IMG/VR virus record: IMGVR_UViG_3300044641_007115
Coordinates: 160,491-224,490 of that record
Length of the DNA: 64,000 bases
Reading direction: 5' to 3' (one strand)
DNA from: a virus
Positions 3,909-58,554 of the stretch are shown piece by piece. Below the pieces are notes generated by a model, which saw only the letters and a list, made by a program, of their open reading frames with translations, made no database searches and was not told where the DNA came from. Every line of letters starts with the position of its first letter. Within the stretch, counting starts at the first letter, position 1. The position numbers were made by a program, and so were the translations under genes.

Positions 3909-4454
3909 TCACCGATTCAGTTCCTTTTCAATCGCGTGTCTCACAACACCGTGAAGGTTCCCCGGTGTCAGATGTTGGTGTAAGTCGTCGAACGCCTGTA
4001 GAGCGTTCTGGAAATGAATGCCGATGCCACCGGCGGCATTCCACCGGTCGATGTTGAGCCGGTAGTCGTCGATCAGGATGTCGCCGGGTTTGGCATGCTG
4101 TCCTTTGTTGGCGCGCGGCGGCGTGATGACCACCGGGTCCAGCCGTGGCAAAACGCCGTGGATTTCCAGCCACGTCAATTTATTTTCCCGGCATTGATCC
4201 GGCAGATGTTTCGACGTGCTGCTACAAATTCCAGTGCGGGTGATTCCCATGACGTATTCCAGCAAAAGCCGGGACCCTTTCATCCACGGAAGATCGCGGA
4301 AAAAGGTCCCGTGCTTTTCGTAGAACGCCTGTCTCTTCTCGTTCGGCCAAGGATTCGCATGGTCATAGACTTCACCGGTGAGCCGGAAGTATTCCCCTTC
4401 GGCGTCTGCCAGCACCATGTCCATGTCGAAGTAGACTAGCGGGCTTGTGGACAT
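3909..4454 (-). CDS. HAD-family 5'(3')-deoxyribonucleotidase-like
   Basis: 181 residues from ATG 4454. N-terminal LVYFDMDMVLADAEGEY gives the HAD DxD nucleophile motif (the second Asp-x-Asp reads DMDMV rather than DxDGT). C-terminal ILIDDYRLNIDRWNAAGG is the acidic motif of 5'-nucleotidase type C (NT5C) proteins, with TPPRANKGQHAK supplying the Lys. Such enzymes dephosphorylate (deoxy)nucleotides and balance phage dNTP pools. The start lies 19 nt inside the upstream gene. Confidence 0.82.
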   Translation of the reverse strand: MSTSPLVYFDMDMVLADAEGEYFRLTGEVYDHANPWPNEKRQAFYEKHGTFFRDLPWMKGSRLLLEYVMGITRTGICSSTSKHLPDQCRENKLTWLEIHGVLPRLDPVVITPPRANKGQHAKPGDILIDDYRLNIDRWNAAGGIGIHFQNALQAFDDLHQHLTPGNLHGVVRHAIEKELNR

Positions 4455-4849
4455 TTTTCCCGCCACTGGAACATCGCCCATTCCCAATCCGTGAAGTCGT
4501 CCGGCTTAACCAGACCGTTCAGCGTGCGATCATACAGCCGCTCCGGGAGCACGATACAAACCGCCGTCAGTGCGCCGTTGAGCGCTTCCATCGATTCGTT
4601 GAACGAACACCACGGGAACGGGTTGTCCGGCGACTGCAACAGCGCTTCGAGTTCCAGAAGCGAACTCTGATATCCGCCATTGAGCACGACCACCGTCTTG
4701 TGATTGTCTTCCCACTCACACAACGTTGCCGCTTGCCCGGATTCCGGGTCGCTGAAGTATCGCCGCCACATCGCCGAAGTTGCGTGAAGCGACTGGATTC
4801 CGGCGTGGATTCCCGCCGTGTACATGTTTGCGAAACAGTAAAGTCTCAT
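4436..4849 (-). CDS. Hypothetical protein
   Basis: 137 residues. ATG 4849 chosen because GGAGAAG lies just upstream; longer frames would run into the upstream gene. Starts MRLYCFANMYTAGIHAG. No recognisable motif; composition is that of a soluble cytosolic protein. Overlaps the nucleotidase by 19 nt. Confidence 0.75.
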   Translation of the reverse strand: MRLYCFANMYTAGIHAGIQSLHATSAMWRRYFSDPESGQAATLCEWEDNHKTVVVLNGGYQSSLLELEALLQSPDNPFPWCSFNESMEALNGALTAVCIVLPERLYDRTLNGLVKPDDFTDWEWAMFQWREKCPQAR

Positions 4850-4860
4850 TCTTCTCCATT

Positions 4861-5262
4861 CTAACTGATGTGACCAAGCGCGCGTGCCCACCGAAGAACG
4901 CCGTGTTGCTTGGTGATCGGCACACACGATACCACTATCCGTTCGACCAGCGCGTCCAGTTCCTTGCACCGGGCCTTTCGCTTCTCATACCGTTGCGGAT
5001 CTTTCATGTCATAGGACATGTCGAATTCCGCCGTGCAAGGCATGCACTGATGGGCGGGCTTTGGCGACACTTGGAATGCCACCATACGCCAGACGTAGGA
5101 CGCTTCGCCCGTGCGCGGGTCGTCTTTCTTGATGGTCGGTTTGCTCGAACGCAACCGATTCTTCCGGCCTTTGATGGCGTTGAACAGGAACTCTTCGATT
5201 TCATTGGCCGGGTTGAATCCGACCAGTGTGGGCATTTCGCGGGTGAAGGATGCAAAGTTCAT
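4861..5262 (-). CDS. Hypothetical protein
   Basis: 133 residues starting MNFASFTREMPTL; the ATG overlaps the end of the short upstream gene region (TACTAACATG). Middle part has KKDDPRTGEASYVWRMVAFQ and a CMPC pair. A basic stretch YEKRKARCKELDALVERI looks helical. Function unknown. Confidence 0.72.
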   Translation of the reverse strand: MNFASFTREMPTLVGFNPANEIEEFLFNAIKGRKNRLRSSKPTIKKDDPRTGEASYVWRMVAFQVSPKPAHQCMPCTAEFDMSYDMKDPQRYEKRKARCKELDALVERIVVSCVPITKQHGVLRWARALGHIS

Positions 5263-5263
5263 G

Positions 5264-5413
5264 TTAGTACCCAAGAACCCAACCGATCACGTTCAGGACG
5301 AAGCTCTCGAACTTCGTCTCTTCAGACTTCATCGGCAACGCAAGGGCATTGCGACGGGCTTGTTTGCGGAAGGCGTTCATTCTCTGAGTCGTGATGGCGG
5401 CGGCGTAAGTCAT
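5264..5413 (-). CDS. Small hypothetical protein (49 aa)
   Basis: A 49-residue gene starting MTYAAAITTQRMNAFRKQAR and ending IGWVLGY. It sits directly behind an early-type operator promoter with GGAGAGAG 7 bases before ATG, so it is expressed despite its size. First gene of the minus-strand run that ends at the nucleotidase. Confidence 0.75.
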   Translation of the reverse strand: MTYAAAITTQRMNAFRKQARRNALALPMKSEETKFESFVLNVIGWVLGY

Positions 5414-44252: not shown

Positions 44253-44535
44253 TCCAAGTCCACGAATCAGCGGGGATGATGGCGTGATAGCCGTCTCCCC
44301 AATCTTTGCCGGTCGTGCTGCACGCCATGCCACCAACGACGATTTCCGACACGACACCATATCCGCGCACGTATCCATCCTGAACGTAGTAGATGCGGCT
44401 TCCTTCGCCAAGTCCGGCGGGCCGGGAACGGAAGGTCCGAAAATAGGAACCGCCACCGGCCTTGAGACATTGCTGTGCCTCTTCAGCGGCGGTGGCGATC
44501 TGGTTCTTCGGTGTGGTGACGATGATGTTTCGCAT
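44155..44535 (-). CDS. Hypothetical protein (126 aa)
   Basis: MRNIIVTTPKNQIATAAEEA, then SRIYYVQDGYVRGYGVVSEI and DSWTWIKPLPMKGFQGWRYF, a small beta-barrel-like pattern. Start overlaps the BI-1 stop (TGATG), so the two are co-translated. Confidence 0.74.
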   Translation of the reverse strand: MRNIIVTTPKNQIATAAEEAQQCLKAGGGSYFRTFRSRPAGLGEGSRIYYVQDGYVRGYGVVSEIVVGGMACSTTGKDWGDGYHAIIPADSWTWIKPLPMKGFQGWRYFVEPTEDLGGWRDPMPEV

Positions 44536-48303: not shown

Positions 48304-48332
48304 TTGACATCGATGGTGAATCGGTGTATAAA
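48304..48332 (+). promoter_or_regulatory. Promoter of the tRNA array
   Basis: TTGACA 48304-48309, 17-nt spacer, TATAAA 48327-48332. No palindromic operator. The only good promoter found ahead of the tRNA genes. Confidence 0.8.
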
Positions 48333-48399
48333 TAGAATCGTAGGCGGTTGTGAGCCGGACGTACCTGTTACCCGGTCGCCACCTACAAAGGCAACGAAC

Positions 48400-48507
48400 A
48401 TGCGCAACGTCAACTACAACACGGCGAACATCCTCAGCGCGATATCCCTACCATCGTTGCCACTCCCCGCTACCCTTAGCGGGTTACGATTGCCGCCCTT
48501 GCGGTAA
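48400..48507 (+). CDS. Leu/Pro-rich leader peptide (35 aa), candidate attenuator sensor
   Basis: AAAGG 8 bases before ATG 48400. The peptide begins MRNVNYNTANILSAIS; the last 19 residues, LPSLPLPATLSGLRLPPLR, hold seven Leu and five Pro. Codons used are CTC, CTA, TTG, CTT, TTA, CCA, CCC and CCG, each with a cognate tRNA gene in the array downstream. The 3' end overlaps two mutually exclusive hairpins. A regulatory rather than structural role is inferred. Confidence 0.6.
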   Translation: MRNVNYNTANILSAISLPSLPLPATLSGLRLPPLR

Positions 48508-48570
48508 CCGTAACTGTTTCATTCCCCAAACACATTCGTAGTGTATTCCCGGTATTGTACCGATTTTTTT
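48466..48570 (+). promoter_or_regulatory. Candidate attenuator region before the tRNA array
   Basis: Hairpin A: CCCGCT/AGCGGG (48466-48471 with 48478-48483). Hairpin B: GGTTA/TAACC (48482-48486 with 48505-48509) around CCGC/GCGG; it shares bases 48482-48483 with A, so they compete. Hairpin C: CGGTA-TTG-TACCG (48550-48562) then A and seven T ending at the first base of tRNA-Pro. CGGTA also occurs at 48502-48506, an alternative partner for TACCG. Confidence 0.5.
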
Positions 48571-48647
48571 CGGGCATTGGCTCAGCTTGGTAGAGCGCAC
48601 CGTTCGGGACGGTGAAGTCGTAGGTTCAAATCCTACATGCCCGACCA
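48571..48647 (+). tRNA. tRNA-Pro (CGG)
   Basis: Acceptor CGGGCAT/ATGCCCG, D-arm, anticodon stem CACCG-TTCGGGA-CGGTG, T-arm GTAGG-TTCAAAT-CCTAC, encoded CCA. Confidence 0.93.
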
Positions 48648-48653
48648 ATCTTT

Positions 48654-48731
48654 CGGGGATTTGGCTAATTGGCAAGCCGCCTGTTTTGGGTACAGGACAT
48701 AATGCGGGTTCGAGTCCCGTGTCCCCGACCA
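48654..48731 (+). tRNA. tRNA-Pro (TGG)
   Basis: Acceptor CGGGGAT/GTCCCCG, anticodon arm CCTGT-TTTGGGT-ACAGG, T-arm TTCGAGT loop, encoded CCA. Confidence 0.9.
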
Positions 48732-48820
48732 AGCCGACGCCGGTCACCCGGCGGGAGCAACTGGTATTTGACAACTGAATGAGAGAAACGAGTTTCGCGG
48801 GCGAAGTTTGCCCGCATAAT

Positions 48821-48897
48821 CGGGAAGTGGGCTAAAGGTCAGCCACCTGCATGGGGTGCAGGGCATCAAGCGGGTTCGATTCCCGCCTTCCCGACCA
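48821..48897 (+). tRNA. tRNA-Pro (GGG)
   Basis: Acceptor CGGGAAG/CTTCCCG, anticodon arm CCTGC-ATGGGGT-GCAGG, encoded CCA. The D-arm GGCTAAAGGTCAGCC is identical to that of the tRNA at 49034, so the two are recent copies. Confidence 0.92.
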
Positions 48898-48921
48898 AAT
48901 CGTTGACACAGCCGGACGGAT

Positions 48922-49010
48922 AACGGTTATCGTGAAATGGTAAACACAACTGTCCAAAAACAGTCGGCCTAAAAAGCCACTGCGGGTTCAAATCCCGCTA
49001 CCCGTTGCCA
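48922..49010 (+). tRNA. tRNA-Leu (CAA)-like, six-base anticodon loop
   Basis: Type II tRNA with variable arm GGC-CTAAAAA-GCC, good T-arm (GCGGG-TTCAAAT-CCCGC) and encoded CCA. The acceptor has one mismatch, the discriminator is G, and the anticodon loop is CCAAAA, one base short of the TTCAAAA of Leu(CAA). Function doubtful. Confidence 0.5.
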
Positions 49011-49033
49011 CTATTTGCTGTGTTACGATTCAT

Positions 49034-49111
49034 CTAGGTGTGGGCTAAAGGTCAGCCGCCTGTTTCGGGAACAGGACATTCAAGTGGGTTCGATTCCCAC
49101 CACCTAGACCA
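49034..49111 (+). tRNA. tRNA-Pro (CGG), second copy
   Basis: Acceptor CTAGGTG/CACCTAG, anticodon arm CCTGT-TTCGGGA-ACAGG, encoded CCA. Confidence 0.91.
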
Positions 49112-49130
49112 AGCTGTAAGCCGAACTGGT

Positions 49131-49240
49131 CATGGTTATCTTTCAATTGGTGAAAACACAACCCGTGGCCTACTCAATTTGCTTACGGTTTTAACGGGTC
49201 TTAGCGACAAGCGGTCGCGGTGTCCAAATCGGGGACACAT
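49131..49240 (+). pseudogene. tRNA-like remnant between tRNA-Pro and tRNA-Leu
   Basis: GGTTATC then a D-arm-like TTTC/GAAA, a long arm ACCCGT/ACGGGT with a 27-base loop, a variable-arm-like GCGAC/GTCGC, and a damaged T-arm. It starts like the 48922 gene but has no acceptor pairing or CCA. Could be a decayed type II tRNA. Confidence 0.3.
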
Positions 49241-49274
49241 GGGAGATGGGGTAGCGTCCATCAGATCCGACCAC

Positions 49275-49358
49275 GGGCGCGTGGTGGAACTAGGCAGACA
49301 CGCTAGTCTTAGGAACTAGTGCTTCGGCGTGAGGGTTCGAATCCCTCCGTGCCCACCA
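49275..49358 (+). tRNA. tRNA-Leu (TAG)
   Basis: Acceptor GGGCGCG/CGTGCCC, anticodon arm CTAGT-CTTAGGA-ACTAG, variable arm, T-arm GAGGG-TTCGAAT-CCCTC, encoded CCA. Confidence 0.92.
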
Positions 49359-49372
49359 ATTACAATGGTGTC

Positions 49373-49606
49373 ATGGCCGCACGAACGGAACTGACACCAG
49401 AAGGACGGGAACAGAAGTTAGTCGATATCTGTTTCCAGATCATGATGCTTGTAACCAGCAAAGAGCACTCGAAACATTTCAGCCGGATGAGCAACGAACA
49501 GAAAGCTGAATGGGTTCGGGATCAATTGCAAGGGTGCGGTTTCCCTACTTCACCTTGCGGAGCATCATGGGGTGTGATAGATCGCAACAATGGCGGGATG
49601 GTGTAA
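49373..49606 (+). CDS. Small protein inside the tRNA array (77 aa)
   Basis: MAARTELTPEGREQKLVDIC onward, helical, with KEHSKHFSRMSNEQKAEWVR. TACAAT ends 6 bases before ATG (leaderless-like). The final codons overlap the 5' end of the next tRNA by 15 nt. Confidence 0.7.
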   Translation: MAARTELTPEGREQKLVDICFQIMMLVTSKEHSKHFSRMSNEQKAEWVRDQLQGCGFPTSPCGASWGVIDRNNGGMV

Positions 49607-49679
49607 TTTGGTAGCCACGCCAGTTTCAAAAACTGGTGGTAGAAATGCCGTGTGGGTTCGAGTCCCACTCCCGCTACCA
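49592..49679 (+). tRNA. tRNA-Leu (CAA)
   Basis: Acceptor GGCGGGA/TCCCGCT, anticodon arm CCAGT-TTCAAAA-ACTGG, long variable arm, encoded CCA. Confidence 0.91.
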
Positions 49680-49776
49680 AGGTCGAAAGACCGACGAAGA
49701 TAGAGACGCATTGACGGTAGGCACCTGTAACTTATCAACCGAATGGTGACGTGACTGTGTGGACAATCGTCGTATT

Positions 49777-49861
49777 GGCCGAATGGCGGAATTGGCAGAC
49801 GCCCCGGATTCAAAACCCGGTGCCTTCGGGTGTGAGAGTTCAAGTCTCTCTTCGGCCACCA
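49777..49861 (+). tRNA. tRNA-Leu (CAA), second copy
   Basis: Acceptor GGCCGAA/TTCGGCC; anticodon arm CCGGA-TTCAAAA-CCCGG with one A-C mismatch; variable arm and encoded CCA. Confidence 0.87.
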
Positions 49862-49957
49862 AAGGATCAGTTCGCTTGGTTTAATTCCAAGGCCCAAAGT
49901 CATAGATGGCGGGCAAAGCCGCTTGACGGTCGATGATGAAAGTTCTGATCCTTCCTT

Positions 49958-50044
49958 CGCGGGATGGTGTAATTGGTAGCCACGCATGTCTCAGAAGCAT
50001 GTGGTAGAAATATCGTGTGGGTTCGAGTCCCACTCCCGCGACCA
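49958..50044 (+). tRNA. tRNA-Leu (CAG)
   Basis: Acceptor CGCGGGA/TCCCGCG, anticodon arm CATGT-CTCAGAA-GCATG, long variable arm, encoded CCA. Confidence 0.91.
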
Positions 50045-50051
50045 ACACTTT

Positions 50052-50140
50052 GGCGGAATGGCGTAATCTTGGTAGCCGCGCATGAATGAGAGTCATGTGG
50101 TAGCAATACCGTAGGGGTTCGAGTCCCCTTTCCGCCACCA
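50052..50140 (+). tRNA. tRNA-Leu (GAG)
   Basis: Acceptor GGCGGAA/TTCCGCC, anticodon arm CATGA-ATGAGAG-TCATG, long variable arm, encoded CCA. Confidence 0.91.
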
Positions 50141-50148
50141 AAGAATTT

Positions 50149-50338
50149 GGGATAGTAGCTCAACGGACAGAGCGCACGAAAAACGGAGCGTGGGCGCGAT
50201 GTAAGGTTCCAGAAGCACCAACCGGCTCTGAGTAAGGGTCGCTAGGGAAGCGGGTAGGGATCGGCCAAACCGATCCAATGTATCCTGAAGTCGCAATGCT
50301 AAAACATGGTCCGGGTTCGATTCCCGGCTATCCCACCA
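50149..50338 (+). tRNA. tRNA gene with large insertion in the anticodon region
   Basis: 5' GGGATAG pairs exactly with 3' CTATCCC; D-arm GCTC/GAGC (50158-50173), T-arm CCGGG-TTCGATT-CCCGG (50311-50327) and CCA are perfect. Between D- and T-arm are 137 bases instead of about 22. The insert has its own stems (GGATCGG/CCGATCC at 50258-50276; CACG/CGTG near 50175). The anticodon cannot be assigned. Confidence 0.6.
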
Positions 50339-51104: not shown

Positions 51105-51182
51105 GGGCGCGTGACGGGAACAGGCAGACCTACCGTCCTTAAAATTCGGTGTTTGGGAGTTCGAGTCTCCCCGCGCCTACCA
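51105..51182 (+). tRNA. tRNA-Leu (TAA), degenerate
   Basis: Acceptor GGGCGCG/CGCGCCT, D-arm, T-arm GGGAG-TTCGAGT-CTCCC and CCA are good. Anticodon loop CTTAAAA reads TAA, but the stem CCGTC/TTCGG has two mismatches and the variable arm is only 5 nt. Confidence 0.7.
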
Positions 51183-51641
51183 CTTCGGTTCTGGTAGATC
51201 CGGCAAGAACGGAACCAGATCAGGACGCAAAACCTTCACACACATCAACAGCCGCAACCCATATGCAAATGCGCCTTGAGCGTCGAAAGCCAGCATTTCG
51301 ACGCCCGATGGGAGTTTGGTTTCAATCAACTCCTTCTCCCGATTGAGTGTTACTTCTATCCCGCCGGGCAACGGATTGGACGCATCTACATCCCCGTATG
51401 CCGCAAGACCAAGCTGGTCAAAATTGATGTTTCCGTTGCTCAGCTTGATTGCCAACTGACCAAGGCGAATGCCGACCGGGAGCATATGTTCCGGCCCACC
51501 GGCAAGCCAGTCTAGTTGGGTGCCGAACTCCATCAGGATGTATTTGTCAACGATACCGACTGCCACATTCAGTCCGCCCCGATCTTTTTCATTGAGGGGT
51601 GCGCCAAGACGGTAGTCGCCGGTCGGTCCAATCTGTTCCAT
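51177..51641 (-). CDS. Hypothetical protein (154 aa)
   Basis: MEQIGPTGDYRLGAPLNEKD then GGLNVAVGIVDKYILMEFG; beta-rich. TATACT ends 6 bases before ATG. Its 3' end overlaps the tRNA at 51105 by 6 nt. It is the only minus-strand gene in the array. Confidence 0.72.
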   Translation of the reverse strand: MEQIGPTGDYRLGAPLNEKDRGGLNVAVGIVDKYILMEFGTQLDWLAGGPEHMLPVGIRLGQLAIKLSNGNINFDQLGLAAYGDVDASNPLPGGIEVTLNREKELIETKLPSGVEMLAFDAQGAFAYGLRLLMCVKVLRPDLVPFLPDLPEPKW

Positions 51642-51657
51642 ATGTCGAGTATATCAC

Positions 51658-51749
51658 GGTGGGATAGTTTAACGGCAAAACGACCGCCTTATAAGCGGGA
51701 AGCGCCAGATTAGCGCATGATCCGGGTTCGAATCCCGGTCCCACTACCA
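51658..51749 (+). tRNA. tRNA with TAT anticodon (Ile?), type II variable arm
   Basis: Acceptor GGTGGGA/TCCCACT, D-arm GTTT/AAAC, anticodon arm CCGC-CTTATAA-GCGG, variable arm GCGC-CAGATTA-GCGC, T-arm CCGGG-TTCGAAT-CCCGG, CCA. The long arm is odd for Ile; identity open. Confidence 0.75.
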
Positions 51750-58087: not shown

Positions 58088-58554
58088 ATCACAACACATT
58101 CGTCCAGAAATGCTGTTGGGTCCATCAAGTCTGAACGACGCTGGAATCCGCCTTCCGTCCGCACCGTGAGTTGTCCAGTAGCGGTTCCGGCGAACAACTC
58201 AAAATGGAGCATAGCGACCGGCAAACCTTGAAGCTGACCAACGAAGCCAAGAACTTCCCCGGCGGTCACCTTGTCCCCGGCCTTCCATAGTTTTGGAGTG
58301 TTCTTCTGGATTTCGCCATACCGCACAACAATGCCGGAAGCGTGCTTCACTTCGAGCGCATAGGTGCCAAGGTAGAAGAAATAGACTGGCTGGATGATCT
58401 CACCGTCTTCCACAGCCAATACTTCGGTTCCGATTGATGCATACAGATCACAACCGGCGTGCTTCCGCCTTCCTTTGTCGCGGGCGCAACCAAAAGAACG
58501 GGGCGGTGTCTTGTAGTCGAGTTTCGGGCGCTGACGCAAAGGAAAAAGTGCCAT
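58084..58554 (-). CDS. M23/LytM-like virion protein with altered active site
   Basis: 156 residues. RRKHAGCDLYASIGTEVLAV gives HxxxD of M23 zinc endopeptidases and the beta core follows (VRYGEI, LWKAGDKVTAGEVLGFV). The HxH motif, however, reads MLHFE, with Met for the first His, so catalysis may be lost or impaired. Likely a baseplate or tail protein. ATAAATA 6 bases before ATG. Confidence 0.8.
   Translation of the reverse strand: MALFPLRQRPKLDYKTPPRSFGCARDKGRRKHAGCDLYASIGTEVLAVEDGEIIQPVYFFYLGTYALEVKHASGIVVRYGEIQKNTPKLWKAGDKVTAGEVLGFVGQLQGLPVAMLHFELFAGTATGQLTVRTEGGFQRRSDLMDPTAFLDECVVI

Follow-up and report, generated by a model that had tools for sequence, protein, structure and literature searches.

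The attenuators of amino-acid operons (trp, his, leu, thr, ilv, phe) are ribosome-mediated and rely on a short leader ORF with regulatory codons. In attenuators of the pheST type, the leader peptide senses tRNA charging, and the operons under control encode aminoacyl-tRNA synthetases. Leader-peptide control is Rho-dependent in other cases, such as mgtL, mgtCBR and tnaC, while T-boxes dispense with an ORF and bind uncharged tRNA themselves. What the tRNA genes of phages are for has been debated for decades, with codon compensation on one side and the replacement of degraded or cut host tRNAs on the other. At the locus described here, a short leader ORF precedes a viral tRNA array. The proposal of an earlier, sequence-only reading, that translation of this leader governs the array, is strongly supported by sequence comparisons: a match between peptide and array is found in all arrays of the phage group and in unrelated phages, most of which have terminator/antiterminator pairs.

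The window, by which we mean the whole stretch of DNA analysed, is 64,000 nucleotides long and represents bases 160491-224490, up to the record end, of a 224,490-base virus record. It comes from a T4-like phage whose baseplate hub has its nearest counterparts (33-43%) in T4-like phages of Vibrio and Aeromonas. The 224-kb record has 41 tRNA matches grouped in three clusters, and a fourth array is known from a near-identical relative of 184.6 kb. Contig L003 (IMGVR_UViG_3300045911_000155), ~85-89% identical to the window around the array, is the sole diverged relative found for the locus; protein baits at 44535 and 55588 retrieved no relatives, or just distant contigs without tRNAs. An intergenic element of ~50-70 bp per copy is repeated in the window at 5409, 7322, 27700, 38113, 40720, 41253, 42749 and 58569, many copies being common to the window and L003. 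It may be a phage promoter together with a conserved 5' leader, placed upstream of many genes.

Leader ORF, hairpins and tRNA array of the window

The TTGACA-N17-TATAAA promoter noted in the earlier reading is present at 48304-48332 (48304..48334 with the following TA; plus strand, as are the leader parts and the tRNA array) and is common to all four arrays of the phage group. Each of the three tRNA clusters in the 224-kb record has one copy of the pattern TTGACATN{15,16}TATAAATA ahead of it, and the record contains no others. A ribosome binding site, AAAGG (48387..48391), identical in L003, sits 8 nt upstream of the ATG of a 35-codon leader ORF (48400..48507; MRNVNYNTANILSAISLPSLPLPATLSGLRLPPLR, then the stop codon), which is open over an equal length in L003. 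The existence of a leader ORF with a ribosome binding site thus agrees with the first description, whose TTG-started version of 67 amino acids is rejected; it overlaps the promoter, and the ATG at 48400 is preferred for that reason.

The ORF is rich in Leu, Pro, Ser and Ile and includes the rare codons AUA, CUA and UUA. These four amino acids make up 19 of its 34 residues, against 8.5 expected (p 1.1e-4), all four isotypes of the array are represented, and own-set enrichment is absent from the other two reading frames. AUA is rare in the window phage (8/7,316 codons), is present in the leaders of both the window and L003, and is decoded by the tRNA-Ile(UAU) of the array (51658..51749; ARAGORN, Rfam). 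The sensed set had been read as Leu and Pro, both of which belong to it, and was incomplete, as it also comprises Ser and the rare Ile codon AUA. The locus has the order found in attenuators, with a promoter, a short ORF with its ribosome binding site and stop codon, and then the tRNA genes to which the codons of the ORF relate.

The Leu/Pro tRNA array announced behind the leader was recovered by ARAGORN and Rfam at 48571..50140. It starts with tRNA-Pro(CGG) at 48571, straight after a run of seven T, and continues with Pro UGG and GGG, a tRNA with an odd anticodon loop, Pro CGG, and Leu UAG, CAA, CAA, CAG and GAG, that is, four Pro and five Leu tRNAs in addition to the odd one. The latter (48922-49010), also present in L003, has an anticodon stem around a 6-nt loop (CCAAAA) and no ARAGORN assignment; it is possibly a Leu tRNA, and its small loop might resist anticodon nucleases. 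In the later part of the array, the gene at 51105..51179 is probably tRNA-Ser(UGA) (Rfam, 34.6 bits; called Ser(tga) only if an intron is allowed). A tRNA-like gene at 50149-50338 is split by ~100 nt and is called His only with an intron allowed, and similar interrupted tRNA genes occur in the second array (L007:4866-5129). A structured element, roughly GTAAGCCG...GGTTATC...GCTTAC, was seen by eye to recur between tRNA genes (window 49116-49240; L007:3275-3360 and 4430-5120; several places in L008). Pieces of it (TTGCTGGCAACAGCCG...GGTTATC) also interrupt tRNA genes as what look like insertions, in an arrangement reminiscent of circular permutation, and the element was not identified by Rfam.

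L003 keeps the promoter, the ribosome binding site, the ORF length, the stop codon, the Leu/Pro-rich half (ILLPSLPLPASLSGLRSPRLR) and both hairpins described below. In the second half of its leader, the majority of substitutions stay inside the array set (S to L, T to S, L to S), a P to R change being the exception. Relatives that keep the array and lose the ORF or its Leu/Pro codons had been named as evidence against leader control; L003 retains the ORF length, the stop codon and the Leu/Pro codons.

Folding of the leader RNA bears on how this control might operate. A 5' stem (48341..48385) folds no better than shuffled sequences (z -0.26) and is largely missing in L003; it was rejected as a switch component for this lack of conservation and probably lies outside the switch. 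Hairpin A (48467..48482) lies within the ORF, with all but one of its pairs kept in L003, and hairpin B (48483..48514), which has a one-base deletion in L003, holds the stop codon in its 3' arm. They had been thought to share two bases and to compete. In the folds, however, they form together as adjacent, compatible helices with no bases in common (-26.1 kcal/mol, z -5.15), and they were rejected as alternative structures. A terminator-like hairpin (48550-48562) followed by T7 (48550..48570) does stand directly before the first tRNA base, as had been described, but it is weak (-4.8 kcal/mol), it folds irrespective of ribosome position (stalled or at the stop codon), and L003 has CGTAGTGTGACCGA-T5 in its place. 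Its role is doubtful, and it is unsupported as a conserved terminator. The folds accommodate hairpins A and B and the T-run hairpin at the same time, and a mutually exclusive antiterminator set by ribosome position was not found at the window locus. The local terminator/antiterminator mechanism first put forward fails here: A and B are compatible, and the T-run hairpin shows no switching in silico and is not conserved in L003.

The four arrays of the phage group and the proposed control

All four arrays of the phage group have the same promoter, and the short ORF behind it abounds in amino acids that the tRNAs of that array carry: Pro/Leu/Ser/Ile in leader 1, Arg/Gly/Val/Asn/Lys/Cys/Trp/Phe in leader 2, Ala/Thr/Asp in leader 3 and Tyr/Ile/Met/Glu/Gln/His in leader 4. 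The leader of cluster 2 (MTNVANKRNGNTARCARGNRFVTFNWCGSRFNGRVKRG) precedes Arg, Gly, Val, Asn, Lys, Cys, Met, His, Trp and Phe tRNAs, that of cluster 3 (MKATFTTRTHTATTMSVRATAFAGGIDIVIDTIAATAAAA) Ala, Asp, Thr and Cys tRNAs, and that of array 4, in the 184.6-kb relative (MIRSMYQYRQEHIG), Tyr, Ile, Met, Glu, His, Phe and Gln tRNAs. Own-set residues number 19/34, 30/37, 23/39 and 9/13 in leaders 1-4, with 8.5, 15.7, 8.2 and 3.7 expected, and the true pairing of leaders and arrays is the best of the 24 possible. The other reading frames of leaders 1-4 show no such enrichment. Isotypes missing from their own leader are His and Met (leader 2), Cys (leader 3) and Phe (leader 4), and together the four isotype sets comprise all 20 amino acids. 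In arrays 2 and 3, an inverted repeat (CCGCTCAGCGG, CCGCCCGGCGG), possibly an operator, lies between the -35 and -10 elements of the promoter (L007:2986-3016 and L008:7412-7382, minus strand); the window promoter has CGATGGTGAATCG at this place.

Each leader ORF is likely, to judge from these sequences, to be a ribosome-mediated attenuator that samples the tRNAs of its own array. From the arrangement we infer translation, stalling, the direction of control and the triggering signal. One promoter and one short leader ORF would serve each array, the codons sampling its amino acids and, in part, its isoacceptors. With plentiful charged tRNAs, the ribosome would reach the stop codon at the hairpin of the ORF end, transcription would end before the array, and array expression would be low. 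If any sampled tRNA became scarce, through starvation or through degradation or cutting of host tRNAs, the ribosome would stall in the ORF. A segment of the ORF, left unoccupied, could then pair with the 5' arm of the terminator further on, and the very tRNAs being tested would be made.

In the phage group of the window, the same leader and the same sensing might act through Rho: stalling or release of the ribosome would alter the end hairpins and the access of Rho to a C-rich stretch. Canonical terminators are absent before arrays 1-4, and a C-rich TCCCC tract follows all four ORFs. The C excess is unusual for array 4 and marginally so for array 3, since 0.0016 and 0.04 of random windows, respectively, have an equal excess, but it is ordinary for arrays 1 and 2 (0.12 and 0.17), and the related scheme of other phages uses intrinsic terminators. 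A Rho-dependent switch is advanced tentatively for this group. The terminating element of the window phage may be the weak hairpin, Rho, or something else.

Recurrence in unrelated phages and the proposed RNA switch

Scanning the promoter pattern over 2.9 million viral contigs also retrieved unrelated phages, namely L053 and the L042/L068/L070/L074/L082 group. The 25-residue leader of L053 contains 19 different amino acids (P 2.5e-4), and the leaders of the latter group contain 18-19 (P 0.015-0.08 each). A canonical terminator stands before the array in L053 and in the L068 group. When these leaders were folded co-transcriptionally with a ribosome in the middle of the ORF, an ORF segment occupied the 5' arm of the terminator (P 0.75-0.81), and the arm became free once the ribosome was placed at the stop codon (0.00-0.18). 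As this pairing is by itself modestly better than in shuffled leaders (0.08-0.19), the argument rests on its dependence on ribosome position and on its recurrence. Blast searches with the L068 and L053 leaders found no match among isolated phages, and a pattern scan for the L068-type antiterminator yielded no new members. In yet another phage (contig G002), a second copy of the promoter (L100:9502, minus strand) precedes a further tRNA array for which no leader ORF longer than three codons was found.

Isolated phages provide further cases. The acidobacterial phage Tunturi_5 (309 kb) carries three arrays, and a leader and a canonical terminator stand before every one of them; residues in set amount to 16/31, 25/36 and 37/48, and the isotypes represented to 4/4, 8/8 and 9/9 (21/21 in total). 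In Bacillus phage G, gp86 (58381-58515) precedes a Cys/Asp/Phe/Tyr/Glu/Thr/Ser array with a terminator, and has 27 of its 42 residues in the set and 7/7 isotypes. The Caulobacter phages phiCbK and CcrColossus have two leaders apiece, and in the phage collection leader A of this group is present in 26 records and leader B in 43. Array A of CcrSC has Thr, His and Trp tRNAs additional to those of phiCbK, and its leader A contains Thr, His and one Trp (33/38 in set, 8/8 isotypes, p 1.7e-8), Trp being absent from leader A of phiCbK. CcrRogue has kept a Ser-rich leader, yet no Ser tRNA is annotated in its array. A tRNA-Tyr-like gene without annotation, with GTA in its anticodon loop, seems to open array B in phiCbK (L138:5057 region) and CcrColossus (L124:12370 region), and is an annotated tRNA-Tyr in Brevundimonas phage Kikimora; Tyr tRNAs were stated to be absent from phiCbK (PMC3556154).

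Weaker or single cases are Atu_ph07, Myrna and XacN1. The candidate leader of Atu_ph07 has 9/9 isotypes (p 0.065), and that of the Mycobacterium phage Myrna (MFALLSLSSSLRLS, then stop; L141:899-943) precedes Ser, Leu, Leu and Leu tRNAs (p 3.6e-7); both phages probably belong to the scheme. The Myrna leader, 23 nt ahead of tRNA-Ser, has neither a ribosome binding site nor a terminator. Leaderless mRNAs are common in mycobacteria, and it may be one of them. In XacN1, the candidate leader MNKPYYKRYYAKA precedes Lys, Lys and Tyr tRNAs. Such a leader is absent from the isolates T4, T5, Aeh1, KVP40, FelixO1, D479, Moby, Luma and GAP32, the first five of which are rich in tRNA genes.

The leader-B sequences of the Caulobacter phages show how the terminator could be captured. 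The terminators of phiCbK lie at 49745-49769 and 51465-51502 of NC_019405. In phiCbK, the ORF segment GGCGGGCC can base-pair with the terminator's 5' arm, GGCCCGCC. In CcrSC, all three elements (ORF segment, 5' arm and 3' arm) have diverged together (ATCGGACGGGCCT vs AGGCCCGTCCGAT), the peptide going from RAG to RTG, and in CcrColossus a different position of the same triple is altered. The terminator and antiterminator thus covary in this group, with CcrPW, in which two antiterminator pairs are broken, as the exception. A region-1 segment further upstream (e.g. CGTCCGG...CCGGGCG) can, as read by eye, pair with the ORF segment, which gives the 1:2 / 2:3 / 3:4 order of classical attenuators. 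Compared with synonymous recoding, a duplex scan gave P 0.000-0.09 for most terminator-bearing leaders and was not significant for L042 (0.23), Tunturi_5 A (0.26) and phage G (0.44). L053, the L068 group, Tunturi_5 and the phiCbK group all have an intrinsic terminator between ORF and array, and in the same phages an ORF segment can capture the 5' arm of the terminator, with dependence on ribosome position in the folds of L053 and the L068 group and covariation in the phiCbK group; the complementarity is weak for Tunturi_5 A, as also for phage G. For several phages, the switch is hence shown in silico.

These terminators and matching antiterminator segments in Tunturi_5, the phiCbK group, L053 and the L068 group weigh against a post-transcriptional role for the leaders, in which a ribosome paused on the leader would protect the tRNA precursor from processing nucleases or expose it to them, so that the match would tune processing and not termination. 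Short distances are what such a role would find favorable: the window ORF ends 63 nt from the first tRNA, with strong hairpins between, and the Myrna leader is closer still and terminator-free. We consider control of processing improbable.

The match between peptides and arrays might in principle be a by-product of composition, or chance, with the ORFs left untranslated. Short ORFs are common, and single p-values vary with the choice of ORF and with the background composition; the latter was taken from the proteins of the window phage, so that single p-values are approximate for GC-rich phages. A swap test is less dependent on this choice. It covered 47 arrays, some from related phages, with negative phages included and ORFs picked blindly, and the mean log10 of the best p was -1.91 with the arrays' own sets vs -1.12 (sd 0.13) with swapped sets, a score equalled by 0/20,000 swaps. 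Together with the best-of-24 and best-of-6 pairings, the negative results in other frames and the independent recurrence in phages of several host phyla, this makes a chance origin very hard to maintain. Least credible of all is that the ORFs encode peptides with functions of their own, e.g. host-takeover proteins, located before arrays by coincidence: phiCbK gp335, phage G gp86 and Tunturi_5 gp308 are indeed annotated as small hypothetical proteins, but the peptides differ wholly between arrays and phages while tracking tRNA content, and an array follows every one of these ORFs closely, in most cases behind a terminator. Attenuation by leader translation remains the reading that we prefer.

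Significance and relation to described systems

The leaders probably represent a widespread class of viral regulation, in which large phages of unrelated lineages and host phyla would split their tRNA genes into arrays, each with a leader-peptide attenuator that takes a census of its own tRNAs, and thereby obtain replacement tRNAs on demand when those of the host are short or destroyed by defence nucleases. If the leader senses the tRNAs under its own control, the tRNA genes would be switched on when needed, an argument for the view that they serve to make good a shortage of, or damage to, host tRNAs. This view becomes testable in phiCbK with Caulobacter, Tunturi_5 with Tunturiibacter, and Bacillus phage G. 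The orphan small genes gp335 of phiCbK, gp86 of G and gp308 of Tunturi_5 would become regulatory elements with a predicted function, and the phage leaders would be natural multi-amino-acid sensors.

No earlier description of leader control of phage tRNAs was found in the openly licensed literature. The papers on Tunturi_5 (PMC11924767) and phiCbK (PMC3556154) report tRNAs, the latter having used terminator prediction, and leaders and attenuation are absent from their texts. Leader peptides and attenuation are likewise not mentioned in a paper on phage tRNAs (PMC13015707), nor are leader peptides, attenuation, terminators or operons in PMC10264068. PMC10264068 and PMC11555353 present phage tRNAs as replacing host tRNAs cut by defence nucleases, and a sensor of shortage would fit this role in the evasion of tRNA-cutting defence.

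T-box riboswitches resemble the phage scheme in that tRNA-related genes are controlled by tRNA charging, but the phage scheme uses an ORF and has no T-box match: searches with Rfam leader and T-box families gave gathering-score matches to tRNA only, and no relevant weak match in the window leader. With mgtL, mgtCBR and tnaC, the phage leaders would have in common that translation of a short ORF decides transcription without an intrinsic terminator, which makes these systems a possible model for the window arrays; their signals and targets are different, however, and Rho is suggested in the window phage by composition alone. In the pheST-type attenuators, too, a leader peptide senses tRNA charging and controls part of the charging machinery, although they respond to a single amino acid and act on cellular synthetase genes, whereas the phage leaders would be multi-isotype and control the tRNA genes themselves. 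The amino-acid operon attenuators share the promoter and the leader ORF rich in regulatory codons; several of the phages also have in common with them a terminator that can lose its 5' arm to a leader segment. Unlike them, the phage leaders belong to viruses and would control tRNA genes rather than biosynthesis, and between 4 and 19 amino acids are sampled by a single leader, in agreement with the tRNA genes downstream. The mechanism itself is known; what would be new are its targets, viral tRNA arrays, and the sensing of multiple isotypes.
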